From: Phycisphaeraceae bacterium
GTDB taxonomy: Bacteria > Planctomycetota > Phycisphaerae > Phycisphaerales > UBA1924
Direction: 5' to 3'
DNA: 64,000 nt
NCBI GenBank assembly: GCA_019636795.1
Contig: JAHBWW010000006.1
Location: forward strand, 227,253 to 291,252
The notes under the pieces are model-generated. The model had not been told where the DNA came from and made no database searches. It worked only from the letters and a program-made list of their open reading frames with translations. The position numbers were made by a program, and so were the translations under genes. Position 1 is the first letter of the stretch, and each line of letters opens with the position of its first letter. Below, one piece after another: positions 12,148-59,338 of this stretch.

Positions 12148-12149
12148 GA

Positions 12150-12763: not shown

Positions 12764-13213
12764 TCACGACGCGGAGGCGAGTCTTGCGCCAGTGTTGACG
12801 CGGATGAGCGGCTCGCGGGTGGTCCATCGCTTGTCGGCGAGGACGATCTGCTGCCCGCTGCGAGAGACGGTGTCGATGATGAGAGGCCCCTGGAGGTTGC
12901 CGGTGAGTTGGTCACCGACTTTGTTGACGATGACGAAGACCTGAGCCTCTTCGAGGTTTTTGATCCCGATGGCCTGGGCCTGATCCTCGCGGATGGGGAC
13001 GGCGTAGTCACGGATAAAGAAGGAAGGATCTGTGACGACGAACGCGAGGTCTGGCTGGTCGATTGACTGGAGCCAGAAGAAACAGGCGTCATCTCCGGGT
13101 TCGAGGAGGCAGTATCGTGCGTGTTCCGAGAACCCGAGGAGACCTTTTGCGAAGGTGATGATGCGGTCCTCCGCGACTTCAATCACCCCAAACCGTGTGG
13201 TCGGCACTTCCAT
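12764..13213 (-). CDS. fliW: Flagellar assembly factor FliW
   Basis: The 149-residue protein matches FliW: TTRFGVIEVAEDRIITFAKG at the N-terminus, GLLGFSEHARYCLLEP, a central FFWLQSIDQPDLAFVV and the VFVIVN and NLQGPLIID segments. FliW binds both flagellin and CsrA. When flagellin is exported, freed FliW sequesters CsrA and relieves repression of flagellin translation. The start ATG at 13213 is chosen because conserved sequence begins there. It lies between flgL and csrA on the same strand. Confidence 0.93.
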   Translation of the reverse strand: MEVPTTRFGVIEVAEDRIITFAKGLLGFSEHARYCLLEPGDDACFFWLQSIDQPDLAFVVTDPSFFIRDYAVPIREDQAQAIGIKNLEEAQVFVIVNKVGDQLTGNLQGPLIIDTVSRSGQQIVLADKRWTTREPLIRVNTGARLASAS

Positions 13214-13365
13214 TGTGCTCTCCAATTCTGCGGCCCCTGCTTGCCTTTCGGCCCCGACGCTCCACGTCGGATGACCTCCTGTCACCGCGCACGGGCCTTG
13301 ATGTGCGCGGACGGCTGACTTGAATGGGCTTGCCTGGCGGTTGGCCAAGGAAGTCCGAAGTGTGG

Positions 13366-15411: not shown

Positions 15412-15423
15412 GGTGTGCCTCGA

Positions 15424-17157: not shown

Positions 17158-17163
17158 GGTGTG

Positions 17164-17646
17164 TTACCTTGTGAGATCGATGCCCGAGACAACTGTGGAG
17201 CATGCATCAACGCGACCGAGGCGGCCATAGGTTCCGGCGTGGTTGAGGCGTGCGGCGACTTGCTGGAGCATGCCTTCCATGTGCGCGAGGAGGGACTGGC
17301 TTGCGATGGCCACAATGTTTTGCTCATCGCGGACGCTCTGAATGATTTCGCGTAGACGTGCGGCGAGTTCGAGCACGCGGCGGCGCGGGGCATCGGGGAG
17401 CGTGGCAGCGAGATCGAGAACGGAGATGGTCTGGCCGAAGGTATTGCGGCGGAGCGTGTCGAGATCGCGGATGCGCTCGATGGAGTCGGCTTGTGCGCGG
17501 ATGGCCTCGGCAATTGCTGCGCGATCGGCGCGGGCGAGTGCTGCGCGATGAGCGCGAGCGGCCTGGAGAAGGGTCTCGTGCTCGGCGATGAGATCGGCGA
17601 GGATGCGAGCGATGGTTGCGGCTGTTTCGGAATGAGTTTCAGGCAT
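17164..17646 (-). CDS. flgN: FlgN-like export chaperone
   Basis: The product of about 160 residues is almost entirely helical, Ala/Arg-rich and lacks signal or membrane segments, matching the FlgN family of chaperones for FlgK and FlgL. A heptad-like stretch (LADLIAEHETLLQAARAHRA) lies near the N-terminus. The identification rests on length, helical character and position immediately before flgK. The ATG at 17646 (MPETHSE) is preferred; an in-frame ATG 11 codons upstream is possible. Confidence 0.7.
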   Translation of the reverse strand: MPETHSETAATIARILADLIAEHETLLQAARAHRAALARADRAAIAEAIRAQADSIERIRDLDTLRRNTFGQTISVLDLAATLPDAPRRRVLELAARLREIIQSVRDEQNIVAIASQSLLAHMEGMLQQVAARLNHAGTYGRLGRVDACSTVVSGIDLTR

Positions 17647-17720
17647 GGTGTGCGTTCTCGTTTGCGAACAGAGACGCACATGGCGTGCCAGAGAATTGGT
17701 CGTGCGAATCGCTGCGATGA

Positions 17721-21214: not shown

Positions 21215-21290
21215 TGCTGATTTGGACGTGTGTAAGCCGATCTCGCCAGTGCGGGAGGCTTGTGTGACGTGATGAAGTGAGGGTTTGAGT

Positions 21291-23036
21291 GTGAGTGGTC
21301 GGCCGAAGCGCATTGGCGAGATTCTGATCAGCGAGGGCGCGGTCACTGAGGAGCAGCTTGACCGGGCGCTGGCCGAGCAGCGTTCAACCGGGCGGCGTGT
21401 CGGGGAGTTGCTGGTTGAGCAGGGGTTGGTTTCGCCGACGGTATTGCTCAATGCGCTGGCGCAGAGCCATGGGGTGCGCGGGTGCCGGCTGCGGCACGGT
21501 TTGCTTGACCCGGGATTGCTTGAACTGATCGGAGCAGAGGAAGCAGAGCGGCTGCGGTGCATCCCGATGTTTCGGCTGCGGGATGTGCTGACGGTTGCGA
21601 TGGTCGATCCGCAGAGTCTGCCCGCGATTGATCGCCTGCGGAAGTTGACGGGACTCACGATCAGGCCGGTACTGGCACTCGAACAGGATGTGCTGGATTA
21701 CATACGCAAGTATGCGCACGGGGACATCGACGTTGACGAGTTTCTGACGTCACTCTCGGAGACAGATGTTGAGGTTGTCGAGCGTGAGCGGGTTGATGAG
21801 CACTCGGCGACGGACCTCGATCGACTGGTCGAGGGCAGCCCGATTGTCAATCTTGTGAACATTGCGCTCCTGACAGCGGTGCGTGACAAGGCGAGTGACA
21901 TTCACATTGAGCCGAACAAGCGCGGAACGCTGGTTCGGTATCGAGTGGATGGGTTGCTGCGCGATCTGATGAAACCTCCGATCGGAATGCATCAGGCGAT
22001 TGTGTCGCGTGTGAAGGTGATCGGGAAAATGGACATTGCGGAGAAGAGGCTGCCGCAGGAAGGGCGCGTGCGGATTGTCGCTGAAGCGCGCGAGATCGAT
22101 CTGCGTGTGTCGAGCATGCCGACGCTGCTGGGCGAGAAGTTGGTGATTCGCATTCTGGACAAGGAGAATTTACACGTTCGGCTGGAAGATCTGGGGTTTC
22201 GGATTGATGCGCTGGATGCGTTCAGGCGTGTGCTTCGGCAGCCTCACGGGTTGATTCTGGTGACAGGCCCGACGGGTAGCGGCAAGACGACGACGCTGTA
22301 TTCGGCGCTGGATCTGCTGCGCAGCCCGGAGCGCAACATCGTGACGGTCGAAGATCCTGTGGAGTATCAGCTTGATCTGGTGAACCAGATTCAGGTGCAG
22401 GATGCGATTGGGATGACGTTTGCGCGCGCGCTGCGGAGCATTCTGCGGCAGGACCCGGATGTCATCATGGTCGGAGAAATTCGAGACGAAGAGACGGCGC
22501 GTGTTGCGGTGCAGGCGGCGTTGACGGGGCACCTGGTGCTGGCGACGCTGCACACGAATGATGCGCCGGGTGCGGTGGCGAGGCTGGTAGATATGGGTGT
22601 TGAGCCGTATCTGCTCTCGGCGGCGTTGCTGGGTGCGGTGGCACAGCGTCTTGCGCGTTCGATCTGTGGGTCGTGCGTGACGAAGTACTATCCGCCGCCG
22701 CTGCTGATTGAGGATCTCGGGAGGCCGGAACTGGAGGGGCGTGCGTTCAAGAAGGGGAGCGGGTGTACGCAGTGCCATGACACGGGGTTCAAGGGGCGCT
22801 TCGGGGTGTATGAGGTGATGGAAGTGACGCCGGCGATTCGGCGGATGATCTATCGGGCCGCGCCGACGCACGAGATACGAGAGAAGTTGCGAGAGTTTGG
22901 CGCGCTGTCGTTGCGTGATGAGGGAATCGCGGCTGCGGTGGAGGGCAAGACGAGCCTCGAAGAAATTGTGCGCGTGACGCACTCGGATGAGGAGGTTGAA
23001 ACCGGACCAGTGCCTCAGAAGCGAGGTGCGGCATGA
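21291..23036 (+). CDS. GspE/PilB-type secretion ATPase
   Basis: The product of about 581 residues begins with an MshEN-type domain (KRIGEILISEGAVTEEQLDR), then has the GspE ATPase core. The Walker A GPTGSGKTTTLYS lies near residue 326, followed by DPDVIMVGEIRDEETA (Asp/Walker B) and a His box (LATLHTNDAPGAV). A zinc knuckle is formed by CGSC and CTQC pairs near 460-493. It powers pseudopilus or pilus assembly. The GTG at 21291 has GAGGG seven bases upstream and is preferred to a TTG two codons earlier. It overlaps the next gene by 4 bp. Confidence 0.92.
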   Translation: MSGRPKRIGEILISEGAVTEEQLDRALAEQRSTGRRVGELLVEQGLVSPTVLLNALAQSHGVRGCRLRHGLLDPGLLELIGAEEAERLRCIPMFRLRDVLTVAMVDPQSLPAIDRLRKLTGLTIRPVLALEQDVLDYIRKYAHGDIDVDEFLTSLSETDVEVVERERVDEHSATDLDRLVEGSPIVNLVNIALLTAVRDKASDIHIEPNKRGTLVRYRVDGLLRDLMKPPIGMHQAIVSRVKVIGKMDIAEKRLPQEGRVRIVAEAREIDLRVSSMPTLLGEKLVIRILDKENLHVRLEDLGFRIDALDAFRRVLRQPHGLILVTGPTGSGKTTTLYSALDLLRSPERNIVTVEDPVEYQLDLVNQIQVQDAIGMTFARALRSILRQDPDVIMVGEIRDEETARVAVQAALTGHLVLATLHTNDAPGAVARLVDMGVEPYLLSAALLGAVAQRLARSICGSCVTKYYPPPLLIEDLGRPELEGRAFKKGSGCTQCHDTGFKGRFGVYEVMEVTPAIRRMIYRAAPTHEIREKLREFGALSLRDEGIAAAVEGKTSLEEIVRVTHSDEEVETGPVPQKRGAA

Positions 23037-24253
23037 AGTTTGTGTTCGAGGCGTTTGATCGAGCGGGAAAGGTTGTGCGTGGGTCAGTTGAGGCCGGCAG
23101 CGAAACGGAGGCCACGGAGAAACTTCGCTCACAGGGAATGTTTGTGTCGTCGGTGCAGGAGTTTTCGGCAGGGCGTGCGCGTGGGAAGATGCGGCTGCCA
23201 TCGGTCAAGAGGCTGCGCGCTCTGGCGATGGTGACGAGGCAGATGTCGCTTCTGATCGCGACGGGTACGACGGTTGTGGACGCGCTTGCTGCGGTTGAGC
23301 GGCAGGTCAAGGACCAGAAGGTACGGCAGACAATCGGCGCGGTGCGTTCGAGGGTGGAAGAGGGCGCGAGTTTATCTGAGGCAATGGGCGCGCATCCAGA
23401 ATTGTTCGACACGGTGTCGTGCAGCCTGGTACACGCTGGCGAGACGGGCGGCGGGATGGAGGGGATGCTTGAGCGTCTCGCGGGGCTGGCGCGACAGCAG
23501 GAGAAACTGGTGTCGTCGGTGATCGGGTCGATGGTGTATCCGCTGCTGCTGATTGTGGTGTCGGTATCGGTGATTGTCTTGATGATGACGTTTGTGCTGC
23601 CACGATTTACCGAGATGTTTGAGGCGCTCGATGCGCCGCTGCCCGCGACGACGCAGCTGCTGATGACGGTCAGCGATTTCATGCGAACATATTGGATGGG
23701 AATTATTCCGGCAATTGGAATCGGGGGTTTTGTGGCGTGGCGAGCGATTGGCACGGATAAGGGTCGTGAGCGAGCCGAGAAGGTGCTGCTGCGCACGCCG
23801 GGAATCGGAAAGATTGCGATCAGTCTGGTGGTGGCACGGATGGTCAGGTTGCTTGGGGTGCTTATTGAGGCGCGGGTGCCGTTGCTCGAGGCACTGGAGT
23901 TGACGCGGGCGTCGGTGCAGAGCCGGCATTTTTGCGCGCTGCTCGAGGGTGCAGCTGAGAAGGTGTCGCAGGGTGAAACGCTGAGCAGTGCGTTCGAAGG
24001 TGATGCGCTGGTACCGGTGTCGGTGTCGGAATCGATCGGGAATGGTGAGAAATCTGGTCGGCTTGCGAGCGTGATGACGAGTCTTGCCGAGTTCATGGAT
24101 GAGGACAACGAGGTGGTGGTGCGTTCGTTGTCGAGCATTGTCGAGCCGGTGATTCTGGTGGTGCTGGGCGTGGTGGTGGGATTTGTGGCGATCAGCATGT
24201 TCCTGCCATTGTTTGATCTGACGTCGATGACACAGCAGGGCGGTGGGAAATAA
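23033..24253 (+). CDS. GspF/PilC-type inner-membrane platform protein
   Basis: The 406-residue protein has the two repeated T2SSF cytoplasmic domains (first around 70-190 with RQMSLLIATGTTVVDALAAV, second around 272-395 with VARMVRLLGVLIEARVPLLE). Three membrane helices follow the usual order, near 170-190, 220-240 and 370-395. It anchors the ATPase and drives addition of pilin subunits. It overlaps the upstream ATPase gene (ATGA) and the downstream PilM-like gene (TAATG), indicating one transcript. Confidence 0.92.
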   Translation: MKFVFEAFDRAGKVVRGSVEAGSETEATEKLRSQGMFVSSVQEFSAGRARGKMRLPSVKRLRALAMVTRQMSLLIATGTTVVDALAAVERQVKDQKVRQTIGAVRSRVEEGASLSEAMGAHPELFDTVSCSLVHAGETGGGMEGMLERLAGLARQQEKLVSSVIGSMVYPLLLIVVSVSVIVLMMTFVLPRFTEMFEALDAPLPATTQLLMTVSDFMRTYWMGIIPAIGIGGFVAWRAIGTDKGRERAEKVLLRTPGIGKIAISLVVARMVRLLGVLIEARVPLLEALELTRASVQSRHFCALLEGAAEKVSQGETLSSAFEGDALVPVSVSESIGNGEKSGRLASVMTSLAEFMDEDNEVVVRSLSSIVEPVILVVLGVVVGFVAISMFLPLFDLTSMTQQGGGK

Positions 24254-25275
24254 TGTCGCGTGGGCATCAGATCGGGCTGGACATTGGTCGCGGGCGCGTG
24301 AAGGTTGCCCAGCGTGATGGGCAGGGGCGGATCGTTCGCCTTGCATCGATGCGTCGTCGCGATGGGCAGGGCGTGATCGGGGATGACGCTGAGTTGATTG
24401 CCGATGCGCTCGAACGCAAGGGTTTCGACCGGCATCCGGTGGTCGTTGGAGCGTGCATGACCGAAGCACGGATCGACGAGATTGAGTTGCCCGTGCTGGC
24501 GTCGAGTGCTCCGGTTGAAAGGCTTGTGCGTGGCGAAGTGGCGAGGCTTGCGCGCTGGAAGAATGATGAGTATGTTGCGTCGTGGTGGGCGATACCGCCT
24601 GCGATGCGGACGCCACCGACGAGCGCGATGCTGGTTGTGTCGTGTCCGAACAGTGTGAGCGAAGCGTGGGCCGAGCCTCTGGCGCGCGCGGGTCTGGATG
24701 TTGTGGCGGTGGACGTTCGTCAGGGGGCGATCGTGCGTGCGTGCAGCATGAAGGCCCAGGCTGCGGGGTTGATGCTGGTTGCGGATATCGGGTGGGGTTC
24801 GACCGAACTCTCAGCCTGGATGTGTGGCGAATTGGTGTTTGTGCGATCGCTCGAAGGACGCGGGCTTGAATCTGCGTCGGCGTTGCTGGCCAACGTCGAG
24901 TGTGATCGAGTGATGGCATTTGAACGGTTGGTGCTTGAGAGTGAGAAGCCGGTCAACGCGTGTACTGCGCGATGGGTGAGGCGTGTCGAGGGATCAGTAG
25001 GGAATCTCGGGCTGGAAATCTCACGCGAGATCGAAAAGACGCTGGTGTACCTGACGCGCCGGTTTGGCGGGTCGGATGTGGCGCGGACCTGGGTTGCGGG
25101 CGGTGGTGCTGGTGTTGGGCGGATGATGAGGGTGATTGAGGATCGGCTCGGCGCGATCGGGATCTGCAAGCCTTTGGAGTTGATGGAAGTCGTTGGTCAA
25201 GCGGCGACACACGGCGCGGACCCGATGTTCGTGACGGCGTGCGGGCTTGCGCAGTGGGGTGGGGGGAACACATGA
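24253..25275 (+). CDS. PilM-like actin-fold assembly protein
   Basis: The 340-residue product starts IGLDIGRGRVKVAQRDG, an actin/ASKHA-type phosphate-1 motif, and later has LMLVADIGWGSTELSAWM and VAGGGAGVGRM, equivalent to the phosphate-2 and adenosine motifs. This matches PilM, or the cytoplasmic part of GspL, which binds the PilN tail. There is no membrane helix, so it is more PilM-like than full GspL. It overlaps both neighbours (TAATG before, ATGA after). Confidence 0.82.
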   Translation: MSRGHQIGLDIGRGRVKVAQRDGQGRIVRLASMRRRDGQGVIGDDAELIADALERKGFDRHPVVVGACMTEARIDEIELPVLASSAPVERLVRGEVARLARWKNDEYVASWWAIPPAMRTPPTSAMLVVSCPNSVSEAWAEPLARAGLDVVAVDVRQGAIVRACSMKAQAAGLMLVADIGWGSTELSAWMCGELVFVRSLEGRGLESASALLANVECDRVMAFERLVLESEKPVNACTARWVRRVEGSVGNLGLEISREIEKTLVYLTRRFGGSDVARTWVAGGGAGVGRMMRVIEDRLGAIGICKPLELMEVVGQAATHGADPMFVTACGLAQWGGGNT

Positions 25276-25850
25276 CGGCGATCAATCTGCTTGCGCCGCG
25301 GCGTGTGATGGAGCGAGAAACGCGACTGCGACGGAACCGATGGACCATGGCCATGAGCGCGGCGGTCGCAGTGGCTGGCGGAGCAATTGCATGGGCGCAG
25401 GGAACACGGGTGCAATCGCATGAACTGCGCGTTGAGGCGTCGCGGTTGGAAGAAGAGATCGGGAGGCTTGCGGTCGTGGCCGAAGCACAGGAGATGTCGC
25501 TCTCGGAGCGTGAGGTGCAAGTGCAGGTGCTGCGGCGCGTGGCGAGGCAGCCGGACTGGTCGGGAGTGCTCGATCTGCTCGGGAGTTGGTGCGGTACCGC
25601 GACGCGGCTTGAAACCGTGACGATGCGCATGGAGTCGGGTCGGTCGCGGTTCGTGATCGTGGTCGTCGGTGTGAGTGAGAGTCAGGAGAAAGTTTCGGCG
25701 TTTGTCGATGAGACCGCACGGAGCGGGCTGTTCGAGTCGATTGTGCTCGGCGGGACGCGGCGTGTGGAAGGGATTGGGATGCTCGGCACGCGATTCGAGT
25801 TAACGTTTGAACTTGCGGGACATCGAGCACAATCGGAGGCGCTGCGATGA
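25272..25850 (+). CDS. PilN-like inner-membrane assembly protein
   Basis: The 192-residue product begins MTAINLLAPRR, the short NLL-type peptide by which PilN docks on PilM. A membrane helix at about residues 24-43 and a coiled segment follow, then a C-terminal alpha/beta domain. The ATG at 25272 overlaps the PilM-like stop as ATGA. With PilM- and PilO-like partners it would form the alignment complex spanning the inner membrane. Confidence 0.8.
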   Translation: MTAINLLAPRRVMERETRLRRNRWTMAMSAAVAVAGGAIAWAQGTRVQSHELRVEASRLEEEIGRLAVVAEAQEMSLSEREVQVQVLRRVARQPDWSGVLDLLGSWCGTATRLETVTMRMESGRSRFVIVVVGVSESQEKVSAFVDETARSGLFESIVLGGTRRVEGIGMLGTRFELTFELAGHRAQSEALR

Positions 25851-26386
25851 TGGGGCGTGAATCGCGGTGGATGACCGATGTCGGGGGAGTGGTGGCGTGT
25901 GCAGTGCTGGTGGCGGCAGTGTATGGGCTTGGGGTTCGGCCTTGGTTGAGCGCGCGGGCCGAGCACGCGATGTATCAGGATCAGGTGGCGTCGCTCTCAA
26001 GCGAAGTTGAGGAATACGAGCGTGTGACGATGCAGCTTGCGCTGGCACTGGCGACGGTTGACAGGCACATCGAGGCCGAGACGGTGACGTTGCGAAGTGC
26101 CTCGCAGTTGACTGATAAGTTGACGGAGCTGGGGCTGCTCGCCGAGGACCACGGGTTGGTGATCGACTCCATGAATCCGGGAAAGGCTGAGGAAGGTGGT
26201 TCGCCGGCGCGAGTGTCGATCAGCCTGCGCGGAGTCGGAAGATATCTGGACGTTGCGCGTTTTCTCAATGAGGCAAGGGATGCGGATCGTGCGGTTGCGG
26301 TGCGTGCGATGCAGTTGAGCCGAGGGGGAGAAGATGGGGCGGGTCGGTTCGAGCTGGAGCTTGTGTGGTTTGTGTCGGGCCGATAG
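25847..26386 (+). CDS. PilO-like inner-membrane assembly protein
   Basis: The 179-residue protein has one N-terminal membrane helix (about 11-28), a coiled-coil stretch (VASLSSEVEEYERVTMQLAL, about 46-65) and a compact periplasmic domain. That order is typical of PilO/GspM. It overlaps the PilN-like gene by 4 bp (ATGA). Identity rests on architecture and gene order rather than diagnostic motifs. Confidence 0.75.
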   Translation: MMGRESRWMTDVGGVVACAVLVAAVYGLGVRPWLSARAEHAMYQDQVASLSSEVEEYERVTMQLALALATVDRHIEAETVTLRSASQLTDKLTELGLLAEDHGLVIDSMNPGKAEEGGSPARVSISLRGVGRYLDVARFLNEARDADRAVAVRAMQLSRGGEDGAGRFELELVWFVSGR

Positions 26387-26444
26387 CGGTTGGTAACGGT
26401 CAATCCCCAGAAGTGGGTTGCGTGTGCGGTCGAAGAATTGACCG

Positions 26445-27023
26445 GTGAAACGCATGGGGATGACGAGACGACAAAAGGGTTTTGTTGGTGTTGCGGTGCT
26501 CGGCGTGGCAGCGGTGGGTGTTGATCGCCTGGTGCTGCTGCCTGGTCCTGCGAGTGCGTCGGCCGCCTCGGTTATGGAGACGGTACGCGAGCATCTCGAT
26601 CTGTCGAAGCTCGAGGCAAGAGCGACACAACTGGTCAAGGCGACAATCGAGGCGGAAGTGCTTGATGCGATGAAACAGGGCGATCCGTCGTTTGATGCGT
26701 TTAACCCTGAGGCGATGAAGCAACTTCAGGCGGCACTGGCGGGAGAGCGAGTGGCGGCCCCGGTGGCGGTGGAGGCCAAGGCGGGGGGGCCGCGCGACGA
26801 ACCGCGCACGCAGCGTGTGCCGGCCTTGACAGCGGTGGTGACTCGCGGCAGTGGGGGCATAGCGGTGCTCGATGGCAAGACGCTGTCGGTCGGCGAAACG
26901 CGTGATGGCATGACGCTTGTGGGGGTGACTGCGCGGTCGGCGACGGTGCGCATCGGGGGACGTGAGTACACGTTATCGCTCCCTGTAGCAGGAAATTTGA
27001 AAAAGTCGAGCGAGACAGAGTGA
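26445..27023 (+). CDS. PilP/GspB-like periplasmic protein (tentative)
   Basis: The 192-residue protein has a membrane helix near residues 12-34, a variable Ala-rich linker, and a C-terminal beta domain of about 50 residues with VLDGKTLSVGETRDGMTLVG. That pattern resembles the small domain of PilP or GspB/GspC-type proteins that contact the secretin. Its place right after the PilO-like gene is where pilP normally lies. Start is the GTG at 26445 or an ATG three codons later. Confidence 0.55.
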   Translation: MKRMGMTRRQKGFVGVAVLGVAAVGVDRLVLLPGPASASAASVMETVREHLDLSKLEARATQLVKATIEAEVLDAMKQGDPSFDAFNPEAMKQLQAALAGERVAAPVAVEAKAGGPRDEPRTQRVPALTAVVTRGSGGIAVLDGKTLSVGETRDGMTLVGVTARSATVRIGGREYTLSLPVAGNLKKSSETE

Positions 27024-27112
27024 AGTTGGAGAGGTGAGTCGACGATGGATTGAGTGGCGGGCCATTTGAATGGTCTGTGATCTAAGGGGATTCGATTCCA
27101 GGGAGGAATGCG

Positions 27113-27589
27113 ATGGAGACTGCGATGAAGAGAACGGTACGTGGATTCAGTCTGATCGAACTGGTGGTGGTGGTGGTGATTCTGGGCATTATCGGCGCGA
27201 TTGCGATTCCGCGCATGAGTCGTGGCGCGTCGGGCGCGGCCGACTCTGCTCTTGTGGCCGATCTTGCAGTGCTTCGCAATGCGATCGCACTGTACGAAAC
27301 GGAGCACCAGGGCGTGTTTCCGACGGTTGCGGCCTTCGAGAATCAGTTGACGACCTTCACGAATCTTGCGGGAACTGCCAACGCGACCAAGACCGAAGAG
27401 TTCCTGTATGGGCCTTACCTGCGCGGGATTCCGAAGATCAAGGTCGGGTCGAACAAGGGTTCGAACGCGGTGGTCGGCACGGCGGGCGGTACAGCGGCAT
27501 GGCTGTACAACCAGACGACCGGCGAGATCTCGGCGAACCTGGCCAGTAGTGAGAAGGACGCTGCGGGCACTCCGTATGCGGATTATTGA
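27113..27589 (+). CDS. Major pseudopilin (GspG-like)
   Basis: The 158-residue protein has a prepilin leader and helix (RGFSLIELVVVVVILGIIGA). Cleavage would follow Gly 11 and leave Phe at +1 and Glu at +5. The C-terminal part, with ALYETEHQGVFPTVAAFENQ, matches the GspG body. It is the first of five pseudopilin-like genes and probably the most abundant subunit. GGAGGAA just before the ATG is a strong ribosome binding site. The 90-bp gap before it could allow separate transcription. Confidence 0.9.
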   Translation: METAMKRTVRGFSLIELVVVVVILGIIGAIAIPRMSRGASGAADSALVADLAVLRNAIALYETEHQGVFPTVAAFENQLTTFTNLAGTANATKTEEFLYGPYLRGIPKIKVGSNKGSNAVVGTAGGTAAWLYNQTTGEISANLASSEKDAAGTPYADY

Positions 27590-27599
27590 ATCACAAGGT

Positions 27600-28064
27600 A
27601 TGACATCCTTTCTGACTGCGATCCGGAGACATTCGGGTCGTGGTTTTTCACTTCTCGAACTTGTTGTGGTGCTTGCGATTGTGGCCGTGCTGGGTGCGAT
27701 TGCCTTGCCGCGGTTCAGTTCGGCGCACGAGAACAGCGCCGCCGATCAAGCGGCCAAGCGTGTTGCGCGGATGATCGATCACGGCCGGACACTGTCACGC
27801 GGGTCGTCCAAGCAGGTCTTGTTCCAGACCGATGCCCAGAACAATCGAGTGCAACTGGTGCTCAATGGAATTACGGTTGAAGCGGTCACACTGTCAGCCA
27901 AGCCTTATCGTGTGAAGGTCGTCAGTGCGAACTTTGGTGGCTCGTCACAGGTCGTGATCGATCACTACGGAGTGGTGCAGACTGCAGGAACGATTGTTTT
28001 GCAATCAGGGACCGCCAAGAGGACCATCAATATCAATACATCGAATGGCATTGTGGTGAACTAG
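27600..28064 (+). CDS. Minor pseudopilin (GspH-like)
   Basis: The 154-residue protein carries RGFSLLELVVVLAIVAVLGA, a prepilin peptidase site plus membrane helix with Glu at +5. The globular part (residues about 50-154) is mostly beta, as in GspH/FimT. The start was placed at the ATG at 27600, eleven bases after the GspG-like stop; an ATG at 27576 overlapping that gene is also possible. It follows the GspG-like gene in the standard order. Confidence 0.85.
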   Translation: MTSFLTAIRRHSGRGFSLLELVVVLAIVAVLGAIALPRFSSAHENSAADQAAKRVARMIDHGRTLSRGSSKQVLFQTDAQNNRVQLVLNGITVEAVTLSAKPYRVKVVSANFGGSSQVVIDHYGVVQTAGTIVLQSGTAKRTININTSNGIVVN

Positions 28065-28100
28065 CGGGCACGTGGAGCGTGTGCCTGATGAGGAAGACGT

Positions 28101-29180
28101 GTGATGAAGAGTTGGCGAGGCATGACGCTGATCGAAATGGTCGCTTCGCTGGCAATTACGGCAATTATTCTGTCTGCGCTTTCGTCGGCGGTGATGGTTG
28201 CGGCCGGGGCGCTGCCGAAGGAATCATCTGAACGTGCATCGCGAGCGACGCAGCAGATGGATCGAATGCTGCTGGATATCACTGAGGCAATGCGTGTGAG
28301 TGTCTCGGGTACGACAGCGATTCGTCTGCTCGTGCCAGATCGAACCGGGAACGGACAGCCTGAGGAGATTGTGTATGGCTGGGTCGGACTCTCGGGCGGG
28401 CAGATCATTCGCTCGCAGAACGGAACAGTGAGCGAATTTCTCGGTGGAGTCGATTCGCTCGCGGTGGAATTGACGACAGGACAATCTGGGCATGTAGCCC
28501 TGACGGGGACGACTCATCCGGTGGTCAAGGGGGCGCGGGTCGAGGTGAAGTTGAACGGGCACGAGCCGGTGTCGCGGGAAGTGCCGATTCATGCCGAGCC
28601 TCCGGTGCTGAGTGGATGGGTGCGGGCGGATTTTGACTCCCTACCTCAGAACGTTGACTGGGACCGCGAAAGTGGGACCGACTGGCAAGTGACAAGCGGG
28701 AGTATTGGGAACGGCAATATCAGTGGCGGGGTGTGGGCGTGCTCGGGTACGCTGAGCCTGCGGAGCCGCTGGAAGTTTACTGAGCCGACGATCGTCTCGA
28801 CACGCGTGCTGATTACGCGAGACGACAGAAGCGCGAGTTTGAAACTGGTGGGGGACTGCTCGGCTCTGGGTCATGTTGAGTTGGAACTGATCGTTCGGCG
28901 TATGAGTTCGAGCCAGACCCGAGTGCAAATCAACCAGATCGGGTTGCTTTCCACATCGACACTGATTTCGCAGACGGTTGGCGGGGGCGTGCATGAAGTC
29001 AGTATGGTGCTGTTGCCAGGTGCAAAACGTGTGAGGCTCATCATCGATGGCGTGCTGGTGGGGCAGCCGAGTTATTCGACAAAGCTTGGGCTTCTGGCGA
29101 ATGGGTCGCTCGCTGTGAGCGGGACGGATTTTCGCGTGGAATACGACTGGGTCGAGGTTCGGGTTGGAGGTGTGGAGTGA
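28101..29180 (+). CDS. Minor pseudopilin (GspJ-like) with extra C-terminal beta domain
   Basis: The 359-residue protein starts with a short leader and RGMTLIEMVASLAITAIILS, a pilin helix with Met at +1 and Glu at +5. Residues about 30-165 fit a minor pseudopilin body. A further region of about 190 residues (from about SGWVRADFDSLPQNVDWDRE) looks like a beta-sandwich of the concanavalin/LamG type, making it much longer than ordinary GspJ. Its last bases overlap the next gene as GTGA. A ligand for the extra domain cannot be inferred. Confidence 0.75.
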   Translation: MMKSWRGMTLIEMVASLAITAIILSALSSAVMVAAGALPKESSERASRATQQMDRMLLDITEAMRVSVSGTTAIRLLVPDRTGNGQPEEIVYGWVGLSGGQIIRSQNGTVSEFLGGVDSLAVELTTGQSGHVALTGTTHPVVKGARVEVKLNGHEPVSREVPIHAEPPVLSGWVRADFDSLPQNVDWDRESGTDWQVTSGSIGNGNISGGVWACSGTLSLRSRWKFTEPTIVSTRVLITRDDRSASLKLVGDCSALGHVELELIVRRMSSSQTRVQINQIGLLSTSTLISQTVGGGVHEVSMVLLPGAKRVRLIIDGVLVGQPSYSTKLGLLANGSLAVSGTDFRVEYDWVEVRVGGVE

Positions 29181-29671
29181 AGCTCTGGGCACGTGCCATG
29201 TCGCTGGCCGAGACGACTATTGCCCTGGCGGTGGTGTCGGTGCTGCTGGGCGCGTCGCTCAACACAGTGGGCGCGACGGTGACGGTGCGGCAGATGGCTG
29301 AGGATCAGGAGCGTGCTGTGCTGCTGGCGCAGGATCTGATGGCGGAGATCATGCAGGTGGAGTATGGCAATTCCGGGACGAATTTTAGCCCCTTTTCACC
29401 CAACGGCAGCACGAGCCGTGCTGCGTACACCACGATCGACCATTACCACGGCTGGACAAGCACGCCTCCGATCACGCGTGATGGCAAGACAATCGAGTGG
29501 GGGTGGGGGCTGACACGACGCGTGAGCGTGGCCAGAGGGTCGAGCGTGCTCTCGGGCCTGGTGCCTTCGTCCAAGGTGATTCGTGTCGAGGTGATGCGCG
29601 GGAAGAAACTGGTGTTCGCGCTCGATGCGATTCGGGTGGAGGCCGAGGCTTCGACAAGGAGCATGCCGTGA
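29177..29671 (+). CDS. Minor pseudopilin (GspI-like)
   Basis: The 164-residue protein has a short leader and a pilin-type helix (MSLAETTIALAVVSVLLGAS) with Glu at +5 if cut before Met. The globular part is beta-rich with aromatic residues around 90-110. The GTG start overlaps the upstream stop. In type II systems GspI nucleates the pseudopilus tip with GspJ and GspK, and the order here is J, I, K. Confidence 0.7.
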   Translation: MKLWARAMSLAETTIALAVVSVLLGASLNTVGATVTVRQMAEDQERAVLLAQDLMAEIMQVEYGNSGTNFSPFSPNGSTSRAAYTTIDHYHGWTSTPPITRDGKTIEWGWGLTRRVSVARGSSVLSGLVPSSKVIRVEVMRGKKLVFALDAIRVEAEASTRSMP

Positions 29672-30162
29672 CGATGCGTGCTTGCCCAAAAGAAGCCTGT
29701 CGAGTGCGATCACGGCGCGGGAGTGTGTACCTGCTCGTGCTGGGCGTGTCGATGATGGTCGTGACGATTGGGGTCGGGTCGGCGCTTGCGGCCCGTGCGC
29801 AACTGGAGCGTCAGAGCATCGCGGCGGACGTGGCGCGGGCTGACACTGGCGCTGTCAGCGCTCTCGAACGCGTCATCGGGCTCATCGTGGAGGGGAAGGT
29901 AGATCCGCGCTCGATGGGTGCGGGCGTGTGGGTGCCCGAGACGAATCTGCGTGGAGTCATGATCTCGGTGTCGTATCGCGATCCGGATGATGGAAACCTG
30001 ACCGATGATGCGTGGGATCGGGTCAAGATCACGAGTCGAGCCAGACTCAATAGCGTGACGCAGTATCGGTCGATCATGATCGAGCCTTTGCCCAACGCCA
30101 GCGGTGGCGTGCGCGGGTGGAAACGCATTCCCGGTTCATACCGTGTGGAAGCGGCCCCGTGA
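29668..30162 (+). CDS. GspK/PilX-like minor pseudopilin
   Basis: The product of about 164 residues has a basic leader (CRVRSRRGSVYLLVLGVSMM) and a hydrophobic helix starting after RRG, but Glu +5 is absent, which is typical of GspK and PilX. The frame is open from 29497, but the GTG at 29668 overlaps the GspI-like stop and fits the operon style. An ATG lies two codons later. It is shorter than most GspK proteins and is the last gene of the run. Confidence 0.65.
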   Translation: MTMRACPKEACRVRSRRGSVYLLVLGVSMMVVTIGVGSALAARAQLERQSIAADVARADTGAVSALERVIGLIVEGKVDPRSMGAGVWVPETNLRGVMISVSYRDPDDGNLTDDAWDRVKITSRARLNSVTQYRSIMIEPLPNASGGVRGWKRIPGSYRVEAAP

Positions 30163-52311: not shown

Positions 52312-52657
52312 ACCTTCGAGTACCTGGTCATAGGACGCCGGACCTTCGAGCACCTGGTTTTATGACGCCGGATCTTCGGGCGCACAAAAACCTTAGACCT
52401 TCAGCAAACGTCCATGCCCGAAGATCCGGGTTCCCCTCACTGCGCACGCCAAACCTTCGAGCACCTGGTTTTATGACGCCGGATCTTCGGGCGCACAAAA
52501 ACCTCAGGCCTTCAGCAAACATCCATGCCCGAAGATCCGGGTTCCATCACTGCGCACGCCAAACCTTCGAGCACCTGGTTTTATGACGCCGGATCTTCGG
52601 GCGCACAAAAACCTCAGACCTTCAGCAAACGTCCAAGCCCGAAGATCCGGGTTCCCT
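52312..52657. repeat. Tandem repeat of ~110 bp with palindromic core
   Basis: Three near-identical units begin at 52342, 52453 and 52563 (periods 111 and 110 bp), preceded by a partial 30-bp unit at 52312. Each holds a 14-bp inverted repeat; in the first unit CCGGATCTTCGGGC (52368-52381) faces GCCCGAAGATCCGG (52416-52429) across a 34-base loop. The last unit ends at the stop codon of the leftward gene at 52657. The block lies between convergent genes, so it may act as a bidirectional terminator. The same arms recur at 57734-57795. Confidence 0.85.
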
Positions 52658-54554: not shown

Positions 54555-55424
54555 TCAAACCAGAGGCCTCGTCACACTCACCGCCCGGTACAGCCCCAGC
54601 ACATCCTCACGTCCATACACCTTCGGCGAATACCGGTTGTTGATCGGCTGAAGTCGAATCACCTCAGCCCCAGCATCATCCCGCTCAAAATACACCCGCT
54701 TGAATGTCGATTCGTGGTCCGGCGCAACACGCGCAAAACAGTCGCACCCGTCCTTGATGTCGCGCGCAGGGCTGAACACCACAATGTCGCCCTCCCGATA
54801 CTCAGGCTCCATCGAATCGCCCACCACACGCGCAGCAAACGCATCCGGGTCTGTCAGCCCCGGGCATCGCACATATTCATCCGCCACGCGCGCCGGATAC
54901 CCCAGATCCGTAAAGTCCGCCGGATAACCCGCAGCCACACGATTGATCAGCGGCACCTCCATCGGCAGCGAACTCTGCACCACCGATGACGCCTGCTCAC
55001 CAGTCAGCTTCTCAACCAGGCGAGCCAACTTGCCCGTGCGATACGCCGCATCAAGCGATCCACGCAACCGTCCAGTGTCGTCAATCCCGTCCGACGCAAT
55101 CAGATCGGCCAGATGCCTCCCCGCACGTCCCTGGTTCGCAAGATCAATCAACTCACGCCGCACCGCCTCCGGCGTCTGGTGCCATCTCGCCACATTCGCC
55201 AGTTCGCCCTCGTGCAGACCTAGCGCACGCTCCAGACTCAGCAGCGTCGCCTCCGAAGGGGGCCCCTTGTGCCCCGTCTCAATCTCCGACAAATACGACT
55301 TGGCAATGCCAACCCGCTCCGCCAGCGCGCTCAGGGTCATTCCTCGGTCAAGTCGCACCTCCCGAAGTCGCTTCCCAAGTTGTGGGGGGGTCCTGTCGTG
55401 CATTGGCTGTGGTTCGCGGCTCAT
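54555..55424 (-). CDS. XRE-family repressor with S24 (LexA-like) peptidase domain
   Basis: The product of about 289 residues has an N-terminal helix-turn-helix (MTLSALAERVGIAKSYLSEI) and a C-terminal S24 peptidase fold. RVVGDSMEPEYREGDIVVFS supplies the catalytic Ser, STFKRVY the Lys, and AAGYPAD a likely self-cleavage site (Ala-Gly). This is the layout of phage CI/LexA-type repressors that cut themselves upon DNA damage. It is divergent from the HTH gene of the terminase cassette, as a prophage switch would be. The ATG at 55424 is used; a GTG at 55454 is possible. Confidence 0.85.
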   Translation of the reverse strand: MSREPQPMHDRTPPQLGKRLREVRLDRGMTLSALAERVGIAKSYLSEIETGHKGPPSEATLLSLERALGLHEGELANVARWHQTPEAVRRELIDLANQGRAGRHLADLIASDGIDDTGRLRGSLDAAYRTGKLARLVEKLTGEQASSVVQSSLPMEVPLINRVAAGYPADFTDLGYPARVADEYVRCPGLTDPDAFAARVVGDSMEPEYREGDIVVFSPARDIKDGCDCFARVAPDHESTFKRVYFERDDAGAEVIRLQPINNRYSPKVYGREDVLGLYRAVSVTRPLV

Positions 55425-55454
55425 GAGTTGTCCCCATTCTCGCCTTTTCGTCAC

Positions 55455-55661
55455 CTCGGGCGGTCCGATCAGATACCATACAGTATACTAGCGTACACGC
55501 TTGTGCGCAGATTCGCGACCCCATTTGTGAAAGTCCTTGAACGGCGTTCGCCGAATGGTAAAACCTCTTGGGAGTGTTCGCAAAACAGCGTAGAAACAGA
55601 AATGAGTGAGACTTGCCAACATTCCAACAAAGTTGAGTTTCCCCCCGCAGGAGGTCAAGCA
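55455..55661. promoter_or_regulatory. Divergent control region with palindromic sites
   Basis: The gap of about 200 bp between the repressor and the HTH gene holds an 8-bp palindrome AGTATACT (55482-55489) within ATACCATACAGTATACTAGC, which also contains -10-like sequences. These are plausible operators for the S24 repressor and promoters for both directions. The plus-strand gene has a strong AGGAGGT ribosome binding site at its 3' edge. No experimental support exists in the sequence. Confidence 0.45.
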
Positions 55662-56153
55662 ATGGGTCGTATCACCTCACGAGCATACCGAACATCCACG
55701 GGCGACTGGAGACACACCCAGGACGCCCAGGCCTGCGACCTCCGTAAACGCATGCGCAGGCAGGCAGCCGAGCACATCGTCGCACGCGCCGCCTTTCTCC
55801 CCCCACCCGATCGCCTCCTCGTCCAACTCTACCTCGAACATGGCCGAACCCTCAAAGACCTAGCCGAAGCCTCAGGCCAGCCCCCGCGCGTCATGAGTCG
55901 CAGAATGCGAAAACTCATCACCCGCGTGGCCTCCGAACGCTTCGACTTCGTCCTCCGACACATGGAATCCTGGCCCACAGGCCGACGCAAAGTCGCCATC
56001 GCCATGGTTCTCCACGGCCTGTCAATCCGCGATGCCGCCCAAACCCTCGCCGTGAGCCTCTACACCGTCCGACGACACCACGAAGCCGTCTGCGCCCTCT
56101 TCGACACCGAGCAGCGGTCCCGCCAGTCACGCACGCTCCAGGGAGCACACTGA
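55662..56153 (+). CDS. HTH protein with two sigma-like helix-turn-helix segments
   Basis: The 163-residue protein is basic and helical. It contains two helix-turn-helix-like segments: LYLEHGRTLKDLAEASGQPP near residue 62, and VLHGLSIRDAAQTLAVSLYT near 116, followed by VRRHHEAVCALF. They resemble region 4 of sigma factors or small phage regulators. AGGAGGT seven bases before the ATG at 55662 decides the start. It is the first gene of the rightward cassette and overlaps the next (TGATG). Confidence 0.65.
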   Translation: MGRITSRAYRTSTGDWRHTQDAQACDLRKRMRRQAAEHIVARAAFLPPPDRLLVQLYLEHGRTLKDLAEASGQPPRVMSRRMRKLITRVASERFDFVLRHMESWPTGRRKVAIAMVLHGLSIRDAAQTLAVSLYTVRRHHEAVCALFDTEQRSRQSRTLQGAH

Positions 56154-57565
56154 TGCCACACCGAATCAACACCACCAGTCCGCCCACCGAGCGGCAGATT
56201 CGCGCCTGCCTCCCCTTCGATCTCAGGCTCCACACCGCCGCCACGCCCGATGTGCCATGCAGCGCACGCGCCATCGAGCAATCCGTTCAACCTGGGCGCA
56301 TCACACTCCTCACCGGGCCCAGTGGGTCAGGCAAGTCCACCGCTCTGCGCAACCTCGAGCAACACCTGCGCACGACCGGCCACCGCGTCGAAATCGCTCA
56401 CTTTTCCAAAAACACGTCAACCCGACTCATCGACATCTTCTCGCCTCGCATGCCCGTCGCCGACGCCCTGCGCCTCCTGACTCACTTCGGCCTCGGCGAG
56501 CCGGCACTCGTCGCACGCACCATCAGCGAACTCTCGCAAGGGCAGCGTCACCGCGCCGAACTCGCCTTTGCCTTTCATCGCGCACTGACCTGCGGCGCAG
56601 GCTGGCTTCTCATCGACGAGTTTGCCTCAGTCCTCGACCGCCTTACCGCCCGAGGCCTGGCAATTACACTCGCCCGGGCCGTTCGCAAGACCGCCATGCA
56701 TGTCGTTTGCGCTACCGCCCATGACGACGTCGCAGCCGCCCTCGACGCCAATCCTGTCATCCGCTTCGACCTTGATGGCTCCATGTCCATCGCTCCCCCG
56801 CGACTCAAAATGCCCCGGTCGCCTCGCCTTCTCATCGAGCCCGGCACTCTGGGAGATCTGGATCAGCTCCTCAAGTTCCACTACCGCGCAGGCAGGCCCG
56901 CGACCTGCGTGGGTGTGCTGCGTGCTGTAGATCAGACCAGTGGCGTGCTCGCTGGTGTTCTGGCTGTGTCGATGCCCACGCTCAATGGCGGCTGGCGCAA
57001 CCTCGCCTGGCCTGGTCGATACGCCGGTCCTGACCGTCGGGCAATCACCCAACGCATCAACGAAGAGCTGCGCTGCATTTCGCGCGTCATCATCGAGCCT
57101 CGTTTTCGAGGCCTGGGTCTGGCCCGCACGCTGGTCGAGCACTATCTCGCCAGCCCCCGCTCGCCCGCGACCGAAGCCATCACCGCAATGGGCGAAATCT
57201 GTCCGTTCTTTGAGCGGGCAGGAATGGTCGCGTATCGCCTCGCGTTGTCCACCGCCGACTCCCGACTGGCCGACGCACTCGAACACCGAGGCTTCGAGCC
57301 TTGGATGCTCGCCGATGAGCACCGCGTCGCCCGCATCACACAGGACCAACTCATCGCCCGCGAACTCGCGCGATGGGCCACAGCACGCAAGATTGTTGAC
57401 GACTGTCCACTCAATCGGGCTTCACTCGCAGCGTCGCGCTTGTGCGCCCGGTCGGTCGCTTATGCCCATGTATTCCCCCCGATTTTTGCCTCACAACTCG
57501 AGGCTCCAAGGGGGAAAAATGACACACAAAACAAGTGTTCCGCCGCCGCAACCCGCTCCCGATGA
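56153..57565 (+). CDS. ABC-type ATPase fused to GNAT acetyltransferase (COG2401-like)
   Basis: The 470-residue product has an ABC ATPase domain (about 40-215: Walker A GPSGSGKST at 55-63, signature LSQGQ at 127-131, Walker B WLLIDEF at 151-157, switch His 190) and a GNAT-like domain (about 225-400) with the acetyl-CoA loop IEPRFRGLGLART. No membrane segment is present, so it is not a transporter. From memory, COG2401 describes this ATPase-acetyltransferase fusion, found in archaea and phages with unknown function. It lies between the HTH gene and a tiny basic protein in the terminase cassette. Confidence 0.78.
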   Translation: MPHRINTTSPPTERQIRACLPFDLRLHTAATPDVPCSARAIEQSVQPGRITLLTGPSGSGKSTALRNLEQHLRTTGHRVEIAHFSKNTSTRLIDIFSPRMPVADALRLLTHFGLGEPALVARTISELSQGQRHRAELAFAFHRALTCGAGWLLIDEFASVLDRLTARGLAITLARAVRKTAMHVVCATAHDDVAAALDANPVIRFDLDGSMSIAPPRLKMPRSPRLLIEPGTLGDLDQLLKFHYRAGRPATCVGVLRAVDQTSGVLAGVLAVSMPTLNGGWRNLAWPGRYAGPDRRAITQRINEELRCISRVIIEPRFRGLGLARTLVEHYLASPRSPATEAITAMGEICPFFERAGMVAYRLALSTADSRLADALEHRGFEPWMLADEHRVARITQDQLIARELARWATARKIVDDCPLNRASLAASRLCARSVAYAHVFPPIFASQLEAPRGKNDTQNKCSAAATRSR

Positions 57566-57689
57566 TCTTCCGCACGCACTGACGTTCTACCTGACCGCGC
57601 GAGAGCGGCAGCAGGTTCTGCGCACCCTGCGCCGCTTTGGACGCAAACGGGCACAAGCACTCCTGCGCGCGCTGCGCGTGGAAAAGTGA
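57519..57689 (+). CDS. Tiny basic helical protein
   Basis: The 56-residue product is Pro-rich at its N-terminus and then a basic helix (ARERQQVLRTLRRFGRKRAQ). AAGGGGGA just before the ATG at 57519 gives a strong ribosome binding site. It overlaps the end of the ATPase-GNAT gene by 47 bp and precedes the terminase, where a terminase small subunit might be expected, but it is far too short for a typical one. Role unknown. Confidence 0.55.
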   Translation: MTHKTSVPPPQPAPDDLPHALTFYLTARERQQVLRTLRRFGRKRAQALLRALRVEK

Positions 57690-57733
57690 CGCTGCATCTC
57701 GGACACCTCATTCCGGACACTGCATCCTGGACG

Positions 57734-57795
57734 CCGGATCTTCGGGCGCACCCGTGCTTCCAAACTTCCATGTGCGTCAACGCCCGAAGGTCCGG
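57734..57795. repeat. Dispersed copy of the palindromic repeat
   Basis: CCGGATCTTCGGGC (57734-57747) faces GCCCGAAGGTCCGG (57782-57795) across a 34-base loop. The arms match the tandem repeat at 52.3-52.7 kb; the single changed base keeps pairing as G-U in RNA. The loop sequence differs between the copies, so conservation is of structure. It lies between the tiny protein gene and the terminase gene, upstream of the terminase ATG. Confidence 0.8.
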
Positions 57796-57865
57796 GTCAA
57801 CCCCGCCCAATTCTCACATTTTCACCGACTTCCCCTCTCAGTATTCGAGGAAAGAGAACAACATC

Positions 57866-59338
57866 ATGGACGATTTCGACTGTGACCTGCCCGGTGCACC
57901 CAAGACCCCGGATGAACTGCACGCCTGGGTTGTGAGGCATCTTGACGTGAGTATTTCCCGCGAGCCCCTGCTCACCGGGCACGCTGCTCCGTTTGACTAT
58001 CTCATTCACACGTTCTTTGAAAGCGACCCGACGCGTGCGCGCGATTGTGTGGTCTGGGCCAATCGTGGTGGGGGCAAGACGTTTCTGGCTGCTGTCGCCA
58101 CGACGCTCGATCTCATCTACAAACCCGGAATCGAGATCCGGATTCTGGGCGGCTCGCTCGAGCAGTCCAAACGCATGCACGCGCATTTGCGCGCGATCTT
58201 CGCACGCCCTGAGTTTGCAACCATGCTCGATGGGCGCATCACCGAACGGCGCATCAGGCTTCGCAATGGCTCGGTCGTCGAACTGCTCGCCCAGTCGCAG
58301 ACATCCGTCCGCGGGACGCGCGTTCAGAAATTGCGATGCGACGAGGTCGAACTGTTCGACCCCGAAGTGTGGGAAGCCGCCCAACTGACCACTCGCAGTA
58401 AGGACTGTGGCGGGGTGCTGGTCAGTGGCAGCATCGAATGTCTTTCGACGCTGCATGTGCCGTACGGGTTGATGTACCGACTTGTAGCCGAAGCGCGCGA
58501 GGGGCAGCGCAAACTCTTCAAGTGGGGGGTGGTGGATGTGCTCGGCGTGTGCGACGATCAGCATGTGTGCCAGAGCGAAGATGGGCAGGTGTGCCCGCTG
58601 TTCGATGCGTGCCGGGGGCGGGCCAAGGAGCGTGACGCGCGCGGCAGTCCGCCGGGGCATATCAGTGTGCATGACGCGGTGCGCCAGCGCGCGCGCGTCA
58701 GCGAGGCGACCTGGTCGAGCGAGATGCTGTGCCTGAGGCCCAGGCGGAGCGATTGTGTGCTTCCTGAGTTTCAGCCTCTGGTGCATGTGGTGCAAGAGGT
58801 GCCGCAGGTGGGTCAGGGCGCGGTGTGGATCGGCGGTATGGACTTCGGCTTTCGTGCGCCGACGGTGGTGCTGTGGGCGTTTGTCGATGCGGAGGGTGTG
58901 GTGTATGTCGTCGATGAGCGCAGCGAAGTGGAGCAGACGGTGTCGCAGCACGCTGAGGCGATCAAGGCGAGCCAGTGGCCTGCGATGGCATGGATCGGGG
59001 TCGATCCGGCGGGGCGCAATCGGTCGGGACAGACGGGGAGCACGGATATTGCGGTGCTGCGCAGCGCCGGGCTTGTGGTCAAGGCCACCAAACTCGATCA
59101 GCAGCGCGGGCTCGAGTTGCTGCGCGCCAGGCTCAAGCCCGCGCTGGGCGAGCCGCGGCTGTTTGTGCATGAGCGGTGCAAGGTGCTCATCGAGTCGATG
59201 GAGAAGTATCGATATCCGGCTGAGAATCTTGAAAGCAAGCAGCCGGTCAAGGATGGATCGGACCACGCAGTCGATGCGCTGCGGTACATGATCCAGAATC
59301 TCGATCATTCGTACCGGGCATCGGTGAAACAATATTGA
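57866..59338 (+). CDS. Terminase large subunit-like protein
   Basis: The 490-residue protein has a terminase ATPase domain (Walker A ANRGGGKT, 65-72; Walker B LRCDEVELF with D159/E160) and an RNase H-like nuclease domain (GGMDFG with D326, GVDPAGRN with D380, GSDHAVDALRY with D466/D470). Between them lies an insertion with four cysteines at about 229, 235, 243 and 249, possibly a zinc or Fe-S site. Such enzymes package phage DNA by cutting and pumping it into a prohead. No portal, capsid or tail gene is nearby. The ATG at 57866 has GAGGAAAG upstream. Confidence 0.83.
   Translation: MDDFDCDLPGAPKTPDELHAWVVRHLDVSISREPLLTGHAAPFDYLIHTFFESDPTRARDCVVWANRGGGKTFLAAVATTLDLIYKPGIEIRILGGSLEQSKRMHAHLRAIFARPEFATMLDGRITERRIRLRNGSVVELLAQSQTSVRGTRVQKLRCDEVELFDPEVWEAAQLTTRSKDCGGVLVSGSIECLSTLHVPYGLMYRLVAEAREGQRKLFKWGVVDVLGVCDDQHVCQSEDGQVCPLFDACRGRAKERDARGSPPGHISVHDAVRQRARVSEATWSSEMLCLRPRRSDCVLPEFQPLVHVVQEVPQVGQGAVWIGGMDFGFRAPTVVLWAFVDAEGVVYVVDERSEVEQTVSQHAEAIKASQWPAMAWIGVDPAGRNRSGQTGSTDIAVLRSAGLVVKATKLDQQRGLELLRARLKPALGEPRLFVHERCKVLIESMEKYRYPAENLESKQPVKDGSDHAVDALRYMIQNLDHSYRASVKQY

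Follow-up and report, generated by a model that had tools for sequence, protein, structure and literature searches.

What is the large subunit of a phage terminase (TerL) doing in a planctomycete chromosome, next to a LexA-like repressor and seemingly without the rest of a phage? The locus lies in a stretch of 64,000 nucleotides (the window) from contig JAHBWW010000006.1 of the Phycisphaeraceae bacterium assembly GCA_019636795.1, and an earlier note, made from the letters alone, had described it as an isolated five-gene cassette (54555–59338), either a prophage remnant or a domesticated system for DNA packaging or gene transfer. We consider that the cassette is probably the regulated operon for DNA packaging of an ancient tailed phage, since domesticated, of the class Phycisphaerae, most likely a gene transfer agent (GTA), a term that an excerpt of PMC8987985 applies to domesticated phages carrying host DNA.

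Gene content of the cassette

Searches against Pfam, PHROGs and NCBIfam recovered the five genes in the order previously described, with a repressor gene divergent from four rightward genes. The repressor (54555–55454, minus strand) is of the S24/LexA-CI type, joining a helix-turn-helix (HTH) domain to an autopeptidase (HTH_31 and Peptidase_S24; PF13560; PF00717, E=4.4e-16, above the curated cut-off; phrog_4, 3.4e-32). Across a divergent promoter/operator region (55455–55601) lies the gene for a tandem HTH protein (55602–56153, plus strand, like all genes after it), a candidate activator whose two HTHs resemble sigma70 region 4 (PF08281 and PF04545, at or just under the Pfam cut-offs; TIGR02937, 2.6e-7, below that model's cut-off). 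There follow a fusion of an ABC ATPase with a GNAT domain (56153–57565), a basic protein of 56 amino acids (57519–57689), a gap (57716–57800) and TerL (57866–59338). The overlapping gene ends and intact motifs on which the earlier note had relied are both borne out: the HTH and ABC-GNAT genes overlap by 1 base and the ABC-GNAT and 56-residue genes by 47 bases, and catalytic motifs are at least 90% conserved.

TerL, which combines an ATPase with an RNase H-like nuclease, matches PF17289 (2.5e-8, above the cut-off) and phrog_2 (1.8e-17), and although its open frame extends upstream, conservation begins near the ATG at 57866. Walker A, Walker B and the three acidic motifs of the nuclease are each at least 90% conserved in 39 sequences. 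Four cysteines with zinc-site-like spacing (C229, C235, C243 and C249; residues 229–249, window ~58550–58615), invariant in 11 aligned TerLs, lie between the two enzymatic parts.

In the fusion protein, which also matches phrog_293, the ABC half (PF00005, 6.7e-10, above the cut-off) retains the Walker A, Walker B and LS.G motifs, and the GNAT half, weak in Pfam (0.018–0.03, below the cut-off), is backed by phrog_886, phrog_11143 and conservation in 39 sequences, with the core N..R.IsRV..P..RG.G.A kept. ABC and GNAT are two separate genes in many relatives. The predicted structure of the fusion has a predicted local distance difference test (pLDDT) score of 65, and the 50 Foldseek matches shown are ABC-ATPase structures. 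A Mom-like identity for the GNAT was rejected, there being no HMMER match to phage Mu Mom and an hhalign probability of 0.1%.

Head genes elsewhere in the genome

That portal, capsid, tail and integrase genes are missing, as the earlier note had stated, holds for the window as read by eye but not for the genome: portal, scaffold-like and capsid genes form one cluster at G000:C6:201-206 kb, on the same contig and about 82 kb from the cassette, so that the description of an isolated, capsid-less unit falls. The cluster encodes an SPP1-type portal (PF05133, 3.2e-23; G000:C6:201226-202629), an SU10-type capsid protein (PF17236, 3.6e-84; phrog_1328, 2.7e-73) and a scaffold-like protein whose PF06810 match (4e-4) falls short of the curated cut-off. 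It also encodes an adaptor-like protein and two small proteins that match nothing clearly. Of 61 genomes, 48 have the PF05133 portal, 45 of them with scores above the curated cut-off, and 16 head loci, all selected for holding a portal (L227-L241 among them), contain the scaffold gene in 16, the capsid gene in 15 and the adaptor gene in 13 cases. By comparison, the capsid (PF05065) and portal (PF04860) of the Rhodobacter capsulatus GTA (RcGTA) type gave no match in this genome and matched 6 and 9 of the 61 genomes, respectively; the phrog_145 portal matched no genome of those scanned and is hence uninformative.

A profile of the capsid protein matched 107 of 150 relatives. Among 32 further genomes it matched all 10 members of the class and all 13 of family f30, both sets having been picked for a TerL match, and weakly a prophage in G500 (6e-15); it matched neither G218 nor G161, nor any of six other genomes of the phylum.

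Recurrence of the cassette across the class

With the window proteins as queries, TerL was matched in 115 and ABC-GNAT in 111 of the 150 related genomes; the five weakest ABC-GNAT matches (E 1e-6 to 5e-9) probably represent ABC proteins of a generic kind. The genes around TerL were compared in 38 other loci (L063-L080 and L084-L103; 20 loci fetched as 20-kb stretches and 18 named loci from GTDB, selected throughout for holding TerL), where ABC was present in 37, GNAT in 38, the HTH gene in 36 and the repressor in 32, some of the misses being contig ends. The 20 fetched loci, from which ABC-GNAT matches with E >1e-8 were left out, span five families of the order, that of the window genome included (f1, f2, f4, f5 and f6), and in two f6 loci GNAT precedes the other genes. 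The 18 named loci come from metagenome-assembled genomes labelled Phycisphaerales, Phycisphaeraceae, Phycisphaerae or Planctomycetota, with one Planctomycetaceae, and it is from these recorded names that we take the class of the relatives to be Phycisphaerae.

The module is also largely kept in the class families f7, f8 and f9, the repressor being seen in f7 only. The fullest set (L173, f7) comprises repressor, HTH, ABC, GNAT, ParB, TerS-like and TerL genes, where TerS denotes the small terminase subunit; L179 (f9) has the same set minus the repressor, three f8 loci hold HTH, ABC, GNAT and TerL, and in the remaining f9 loci fetched TerL stands apart from the module. GNAT and TerL are both retained in three f9 genomes at a distance of 31–33 kb. 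In three f9 genomes (L176-L178), a lone TerL lies near a dnaA-like gene, as judged by eye, and no phage gene was recognised around it.

GNAT is present in each of the 10 class members that hold TerL, 15 of the 16 TerL-negative genomes tested lack it, and the f2 genomes listed are without TerL and capsid, except G115. A neighbour of the window cassette, DUF6677, is near the cassette in 17 of the 38 loci, which argues for one inherited place. The earlier note had proposed searching for the five genes together, holding that if they never recurred and relatives carried a complete prophage here, a remnant would be the better explanation; the genes do recur together, and the loci compared in relatives show no complete prophage.

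Linkage, selection and descent

TerL and the capsid gene go together: 102 of the 150 genomes have both, 13 TerL only, 5 capsid only and 30 neither (Fisher 2e-16, uncorrected for relatedness). Among genomes assembled into at most five contigs, 11 have both; the two genes are 25–67 kb apart in 10 of these and 649 kb apart in one, and in G097 the distance is 10 kb; these distances fit one ancestral cluster that was later broken up. For the pair G033/G084, the ratio of nonsynonymous to synonymous substitution rates (dN/dS) is 0.21 for TerL, 0.14 for capsid, 0.16 for portal, 0.21 for MetRS and a looser 0.31 for ABC-GNAT, and over the pairs taken, which are close pairs, it ranges from 0.09 to 0.31. 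Estimated in this way, TerL and capsid are under purifying selection like that on MetRS.

Identity to the window genome's own capsid protein is 55–77% within the order, 53–58% in the class and 47–52% in f30, as against 35% over nearly the full length for the best virus and 24% for the G500 prophage. In viral contigs, the best segments reached 39% over part of the length for capsid and 34–38% for TerL, a single ABC-GNAT sequence used as query had no match, and the collections searched hold no close virus to capsid or TerL. A tree of 48 hand-picked TerL sequences unites the order (99/99) and joins the class with long, unsure rows. Over 16 genomes, distances of the major capsid protein (MCP) and TerL are correlated (rho 0.55, 0 of 5000 permutations).

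The gene order itself has phage counterparts. Pseudomonas phage nickie and Klebsiella phage ST13-OXA48phi12.3 carry genes for ParB, ABC, GNAT, a DNA-binding protein, TerL and portal in this order, with a few other genes between, and Leptospira phage LE3 has a similar module order; phrog_723 is the best PHROG match of both the nickie ParB and the ParB of L098. On this evidence, the cassette descends from a phage packaging module.

A ParB relic and a TerS-like gene

For the 56-residue protein, neither Pfam nor PHROGs nor NCBIfam has a matching family. Its position is taken in deeper families by a full ParB-like protein whose last ~50 residues match it, and a profile of six such ParBs matches it solely through positions 141–194, scoring 26.3 bits where 1000 shuffles gave no more than 6.3. 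On the strength of these alignments, we identify the protein as the relic C-terminal tail of a ParB-like protein; counts of ParB across the TerL loci omit such tail-only matches. Its model has two helices and no strand (pLDDT 65), and a ribbon-helix-helix-like strand-helix-helix pattern is possible.

The gap before TerL is where some relatives have a TerS-like gene of ~150 codons, found in 8 of 39 loci scanned (L090 and L097-L103); the label rests on position, and the two TerS-like proteins scanned had no PHROG match. One TerS-like case apart, the own-family loci scanned are without this gene. In the window, the gap holds one copy of a dispersed repeat (core at ~57730), which recurs at 52318–52648 as three tandem copies of a ~110-nt unit with a 22-nt core (52364, 52475 and 52585). 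Elsewhere in the window (8706–17679 and 21285–30162), flagellin and flagellar genes and a type II/IV-pilus-like assembly operon were recognised by eye.

Control of the operon

The repressor has the features of a self-cleaving protein of the LexA/CI type (an Ala-Gly site, a Ser-Lys dyad and an HTH; cleavage is predicted), and the Ala-Gly site, the Ser of GDSM and the Lys of TFKR are at least 90% conserved in 33 orthologues, which makes a DNA-damage switch for the cassette plausible. In relatives, the intergenic region contains the palindrome GTTCrC-N6-GyGAAC, read by eye from 25 loci including the window, 14 of which supplied the sites used; in the window it is degenerate (GTTCGCAAAACAGCGTAG at ~55576). 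The resulting position weight matrix scores 11.2 within 55455–55601, and another site in the window outside that interval reaches 13.3. Looked for as the mark of a wider repressor regulon, the pattern is present in 87 of 101 genomes and is commoner than its reversed control. A second S24 protein is encoded at G000:C1:108684-109031 and is possibly the true LexA.

Proposed mechanism

We infer the signal for induction, the roles of the HTH protein and ABC-GNAT, and the packaging, release and transfer of host DNA as follows. Judging from the architecture, the LexA/CI-like repressor would hold the operon off until it cleaves itself, probably after DNA damage, whereupon the operon would be expressed and the HTH protein might turn on the distant head operon. 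ABC-GNAT and the ParB-derived small protein might then prepare or mark DNA (acylation of a DNA base is the activity predicted for such a GNAT/ABC pair in an excerpt of Iyer et al. 2021; PMC7824862), and TerL would pump and cut host DNA into procapsids made by the portal-scaffold-capsid cluster ~82 kb away. Filled particles would exit the cell, and host DNA would probably be moved between cells.

Phage-derived TerL, portal, scaffold-like and capsid genes are thus all present in one genome, and they appear to have been retained vertically under purifying selection across the class (judged without species-tree reconciliation); by the features that gave a clear result the system is GTA-like, while in capsid and portal it is unlike RcGTA. 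A bolder version, which we offer only as a tentative possibility, is that an independent GTA was ancestral in Phycisphaerae and is shared with another planctomycete family, that ABC-GNAT marks host DNA in place of a small terminase, and that the system is parasitised by a capsid-carrying element at a fixed site in the capsid gene. If a GTA is what these genes encode, a whole bacterial class carries a DNA-packaging particle with capsid, portal and packaging parts unlike those of RcGTA, gene exchange in largely uncultured bacteria becomes testable, and there is a cellular setting for learning what ABC-GNAT enzymes do to DNA.

Weighing the evidence

Several observations weigh against a domesticated packaging system of this kind. 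No tail gene was identified for the window genome, where a whole-genome search for tails was not made: none was recognised by eye near the head cluster or in the window, and tail-like genes follow the head cluster solely in some f5, f6 and f9 relatives. The association of TerL with capsid is broken in the 13 genomes with TerL alone and the 5 with capsid alone. Of the 102 genomes with both, only 42 carry them on one contig (median distance 33 kb; many assemblies are fragmented), and 4 of the 7 genomes that comprise 6–10 contigs have them on separate ones. Likewise, G036 has TerL without a GNAT match and G054 has GNAT without TerL, and the window and nearly all own-family loci scanned lack the ParB domain together with the TerS-like gene. 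Within the order, the MCP/TerL correlation is weak (n=9, rho 0.31, p 0.07), and the TerL of family f30 falls in another branch of the tree, so that f30 may have exchanged its TerL. As to control, the repressor's putative operator precedes the portal gene in 1 of 27 loci, about the level of chance, which disfavours direct joint control of packaging and head genes, and no common motif upstream of the portal stood out (gapped 5-mers recurred in up to 5 of 22 loci, compared with a maximum of 4 in random windows). Lastly, the capsid gene is split in 9 of the 107 capsid-positive genomes.

The splits lie near codons 55–82 (G115, G036, G085, G017, G002 and G086, corresponding to L259-L264, and also G004, G057 and G068). 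In the first six, the pieces are 10.5–11.6 kb apart on one contig, and all six inserts have a large-serine-recombinase motif; the insert of L259, the one scanned, encodes its own capsid-protease fusion (PF25209), a primase/helicase, a sigma-like protein and a DNA methyltransferase. The insert reads as a capsid-bearing element lodged inside the capsid gene. Direct repeats longer than 10 bp were found at the junctions of none of five loci, and none of at least 9 bp in the sixth.

Alternative explanations

Instead of transferring genes, a domesticated capsid system could serve as a tailless DNA store, in lysis-coupled DNA release or as a killer particle. In its favour, head and packaging genes are retained, and neither their surroundings nor the window contain a recognised tail gene (the whole genome not having been searched for tails). 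Against this stand the tail-like genes found beyond the head cluster in certain f5, f6 and f9 relatives, from which the ancestor probably had a tail, and we regard a role other than transfer as unlikely. The tail-like genes scanned had no PHROG match and one weak lectin match. Large tail-like proteins are encoded after the head cluster in f5 and f9 (L231, 16640–19534; L239, 523–2619; L268, 906–8361), one of them with a weak Laminin_G_3 match, and may include receptor-binding parts. Holin-like genes were noticed by eye in relatives only and had no PHROG matches.

An equally small chance attaches to a capsid-independent, restriction-like system, in which ABC-GNAT would modify DNA and the TerL motor-nuclease would attack unmodified DNA. 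The DNA modification predicted for ABC-GNAT (PMC7824862) would suit such a system. In f30, moreover, the fused ABC-GNAT gene adjoins or overlaps a divergent TerL in 12 of 13 loci (L188-L199, the exception being L187), its surroundings have a housekeeping look in the four loci listed (L196, for example, has RecR- and RpoN-like genes as judged by eye), and the capsid gene is elsewhere. However, the capsid co-occurs with TerL in the order and is present in all 13 f30 genomes tested, and the wide, apparently vertical spread is unlike that of most defence systems. PADLOC gave no match at 1e-3 for TerL, HTH protein or ParB and only partial ATPase matches for ABC-GNAT; those of the repressor were confined to its HTH part.

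The idea of a decaying remnant, the few surviving genes of a phage once integrated here, we judge very improbable. TerL, the repressor, ABC-GNAT and the ParB relic each have relatives among phages, single parts are absent from some genomes, and the own-family loci lack the ParB domain and, one case apart, the TerS-like gene, but presence across the class, the DUF6677 neighbour, intact catalytic motifs and dN/dS like that of MetRS all speak against decay, and no integrase was recognised at the loci read by eye. More broadly, genes for integration or replication were not recognised by eye among the genes of the window or within the 40 kb surrounding the head cluster, the whole genome not having been searched for integrases. 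The combination of patchy presence and gene decay expected of a remnant was not found, and of the two possibilities raised by the earlier note, it is the domesticated packaging or gene-transfer system that is supported. A mobile satellite resembling a phage-inducible chromosomal island and packaging itself with helper capsids is scarcely credible, since, although the layout, with an S24 repressor diverging from packaging genes, is like that of satellite control regions, no integrase was recognised by eye beside the cassette, DUF6677 is its neighbour in 17 of 38 loci, its presence is not patchy across most of the order and the genome has capsid genes of its own.

Comparison with known systems

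The domesticated packaging system that we favour has relatives of several kinds. Capsid-forming phage-inducible chromosomal islands (cfPICIs) are capsid-forming satellites that consist of small regulated units with their own packaging genes; the cassette is likewise small, regulated and equipped for packaging, but shows no sign of mobility, and it is the element lodged in the capsid gene in nine relatives that looks more like a cfPICI. With the DNA-acylation system predicted in the part of PMC7824862 cited above, the cassette shares an ABC ATPase coupled to a GNAT, a pair that in this case is linked, on bacterial chromosomes, with a terminase and a capsid system.

RcGTA uses an HK97-type capsid (PF05065) and portal (PF04860). 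As in the RcGTA-like GTAs of Alphaproteobacteria (excerpted from PMC7947584), a host lineage keeps phage-derived head and packaging genes with TerL, portal and capsid; here, by contrast, the MCP is of the SU10 type and the portal of the SPP1 type, packaging and head genes stand in separate clusters, and ABC-GNAT, a ParB relic and an S24 repressor are added. The only planctomycete example in the excerpted text of Esterman et al. (2021; PMC7947584) is the TerL of a Zavarzinella prophage, and no GTA or domesticated capsid system in Phycisphaerae was recognisable from the titles and abstract starts of the papers found.

The closest likeness in gene order is to phages nickie, ST13-OXA48phi12.3 and LE3, in which ParB-like, ABC and GNAT genes likewise lie upstream of TerL and portal. 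In the phages, however, the portal comes close behind TerL, whereas in Phycisphaerae the module is detached from the head genes, sits in the chromosome beside a divergent repressor, and ends in a TerL that is only distantly related to theirs.

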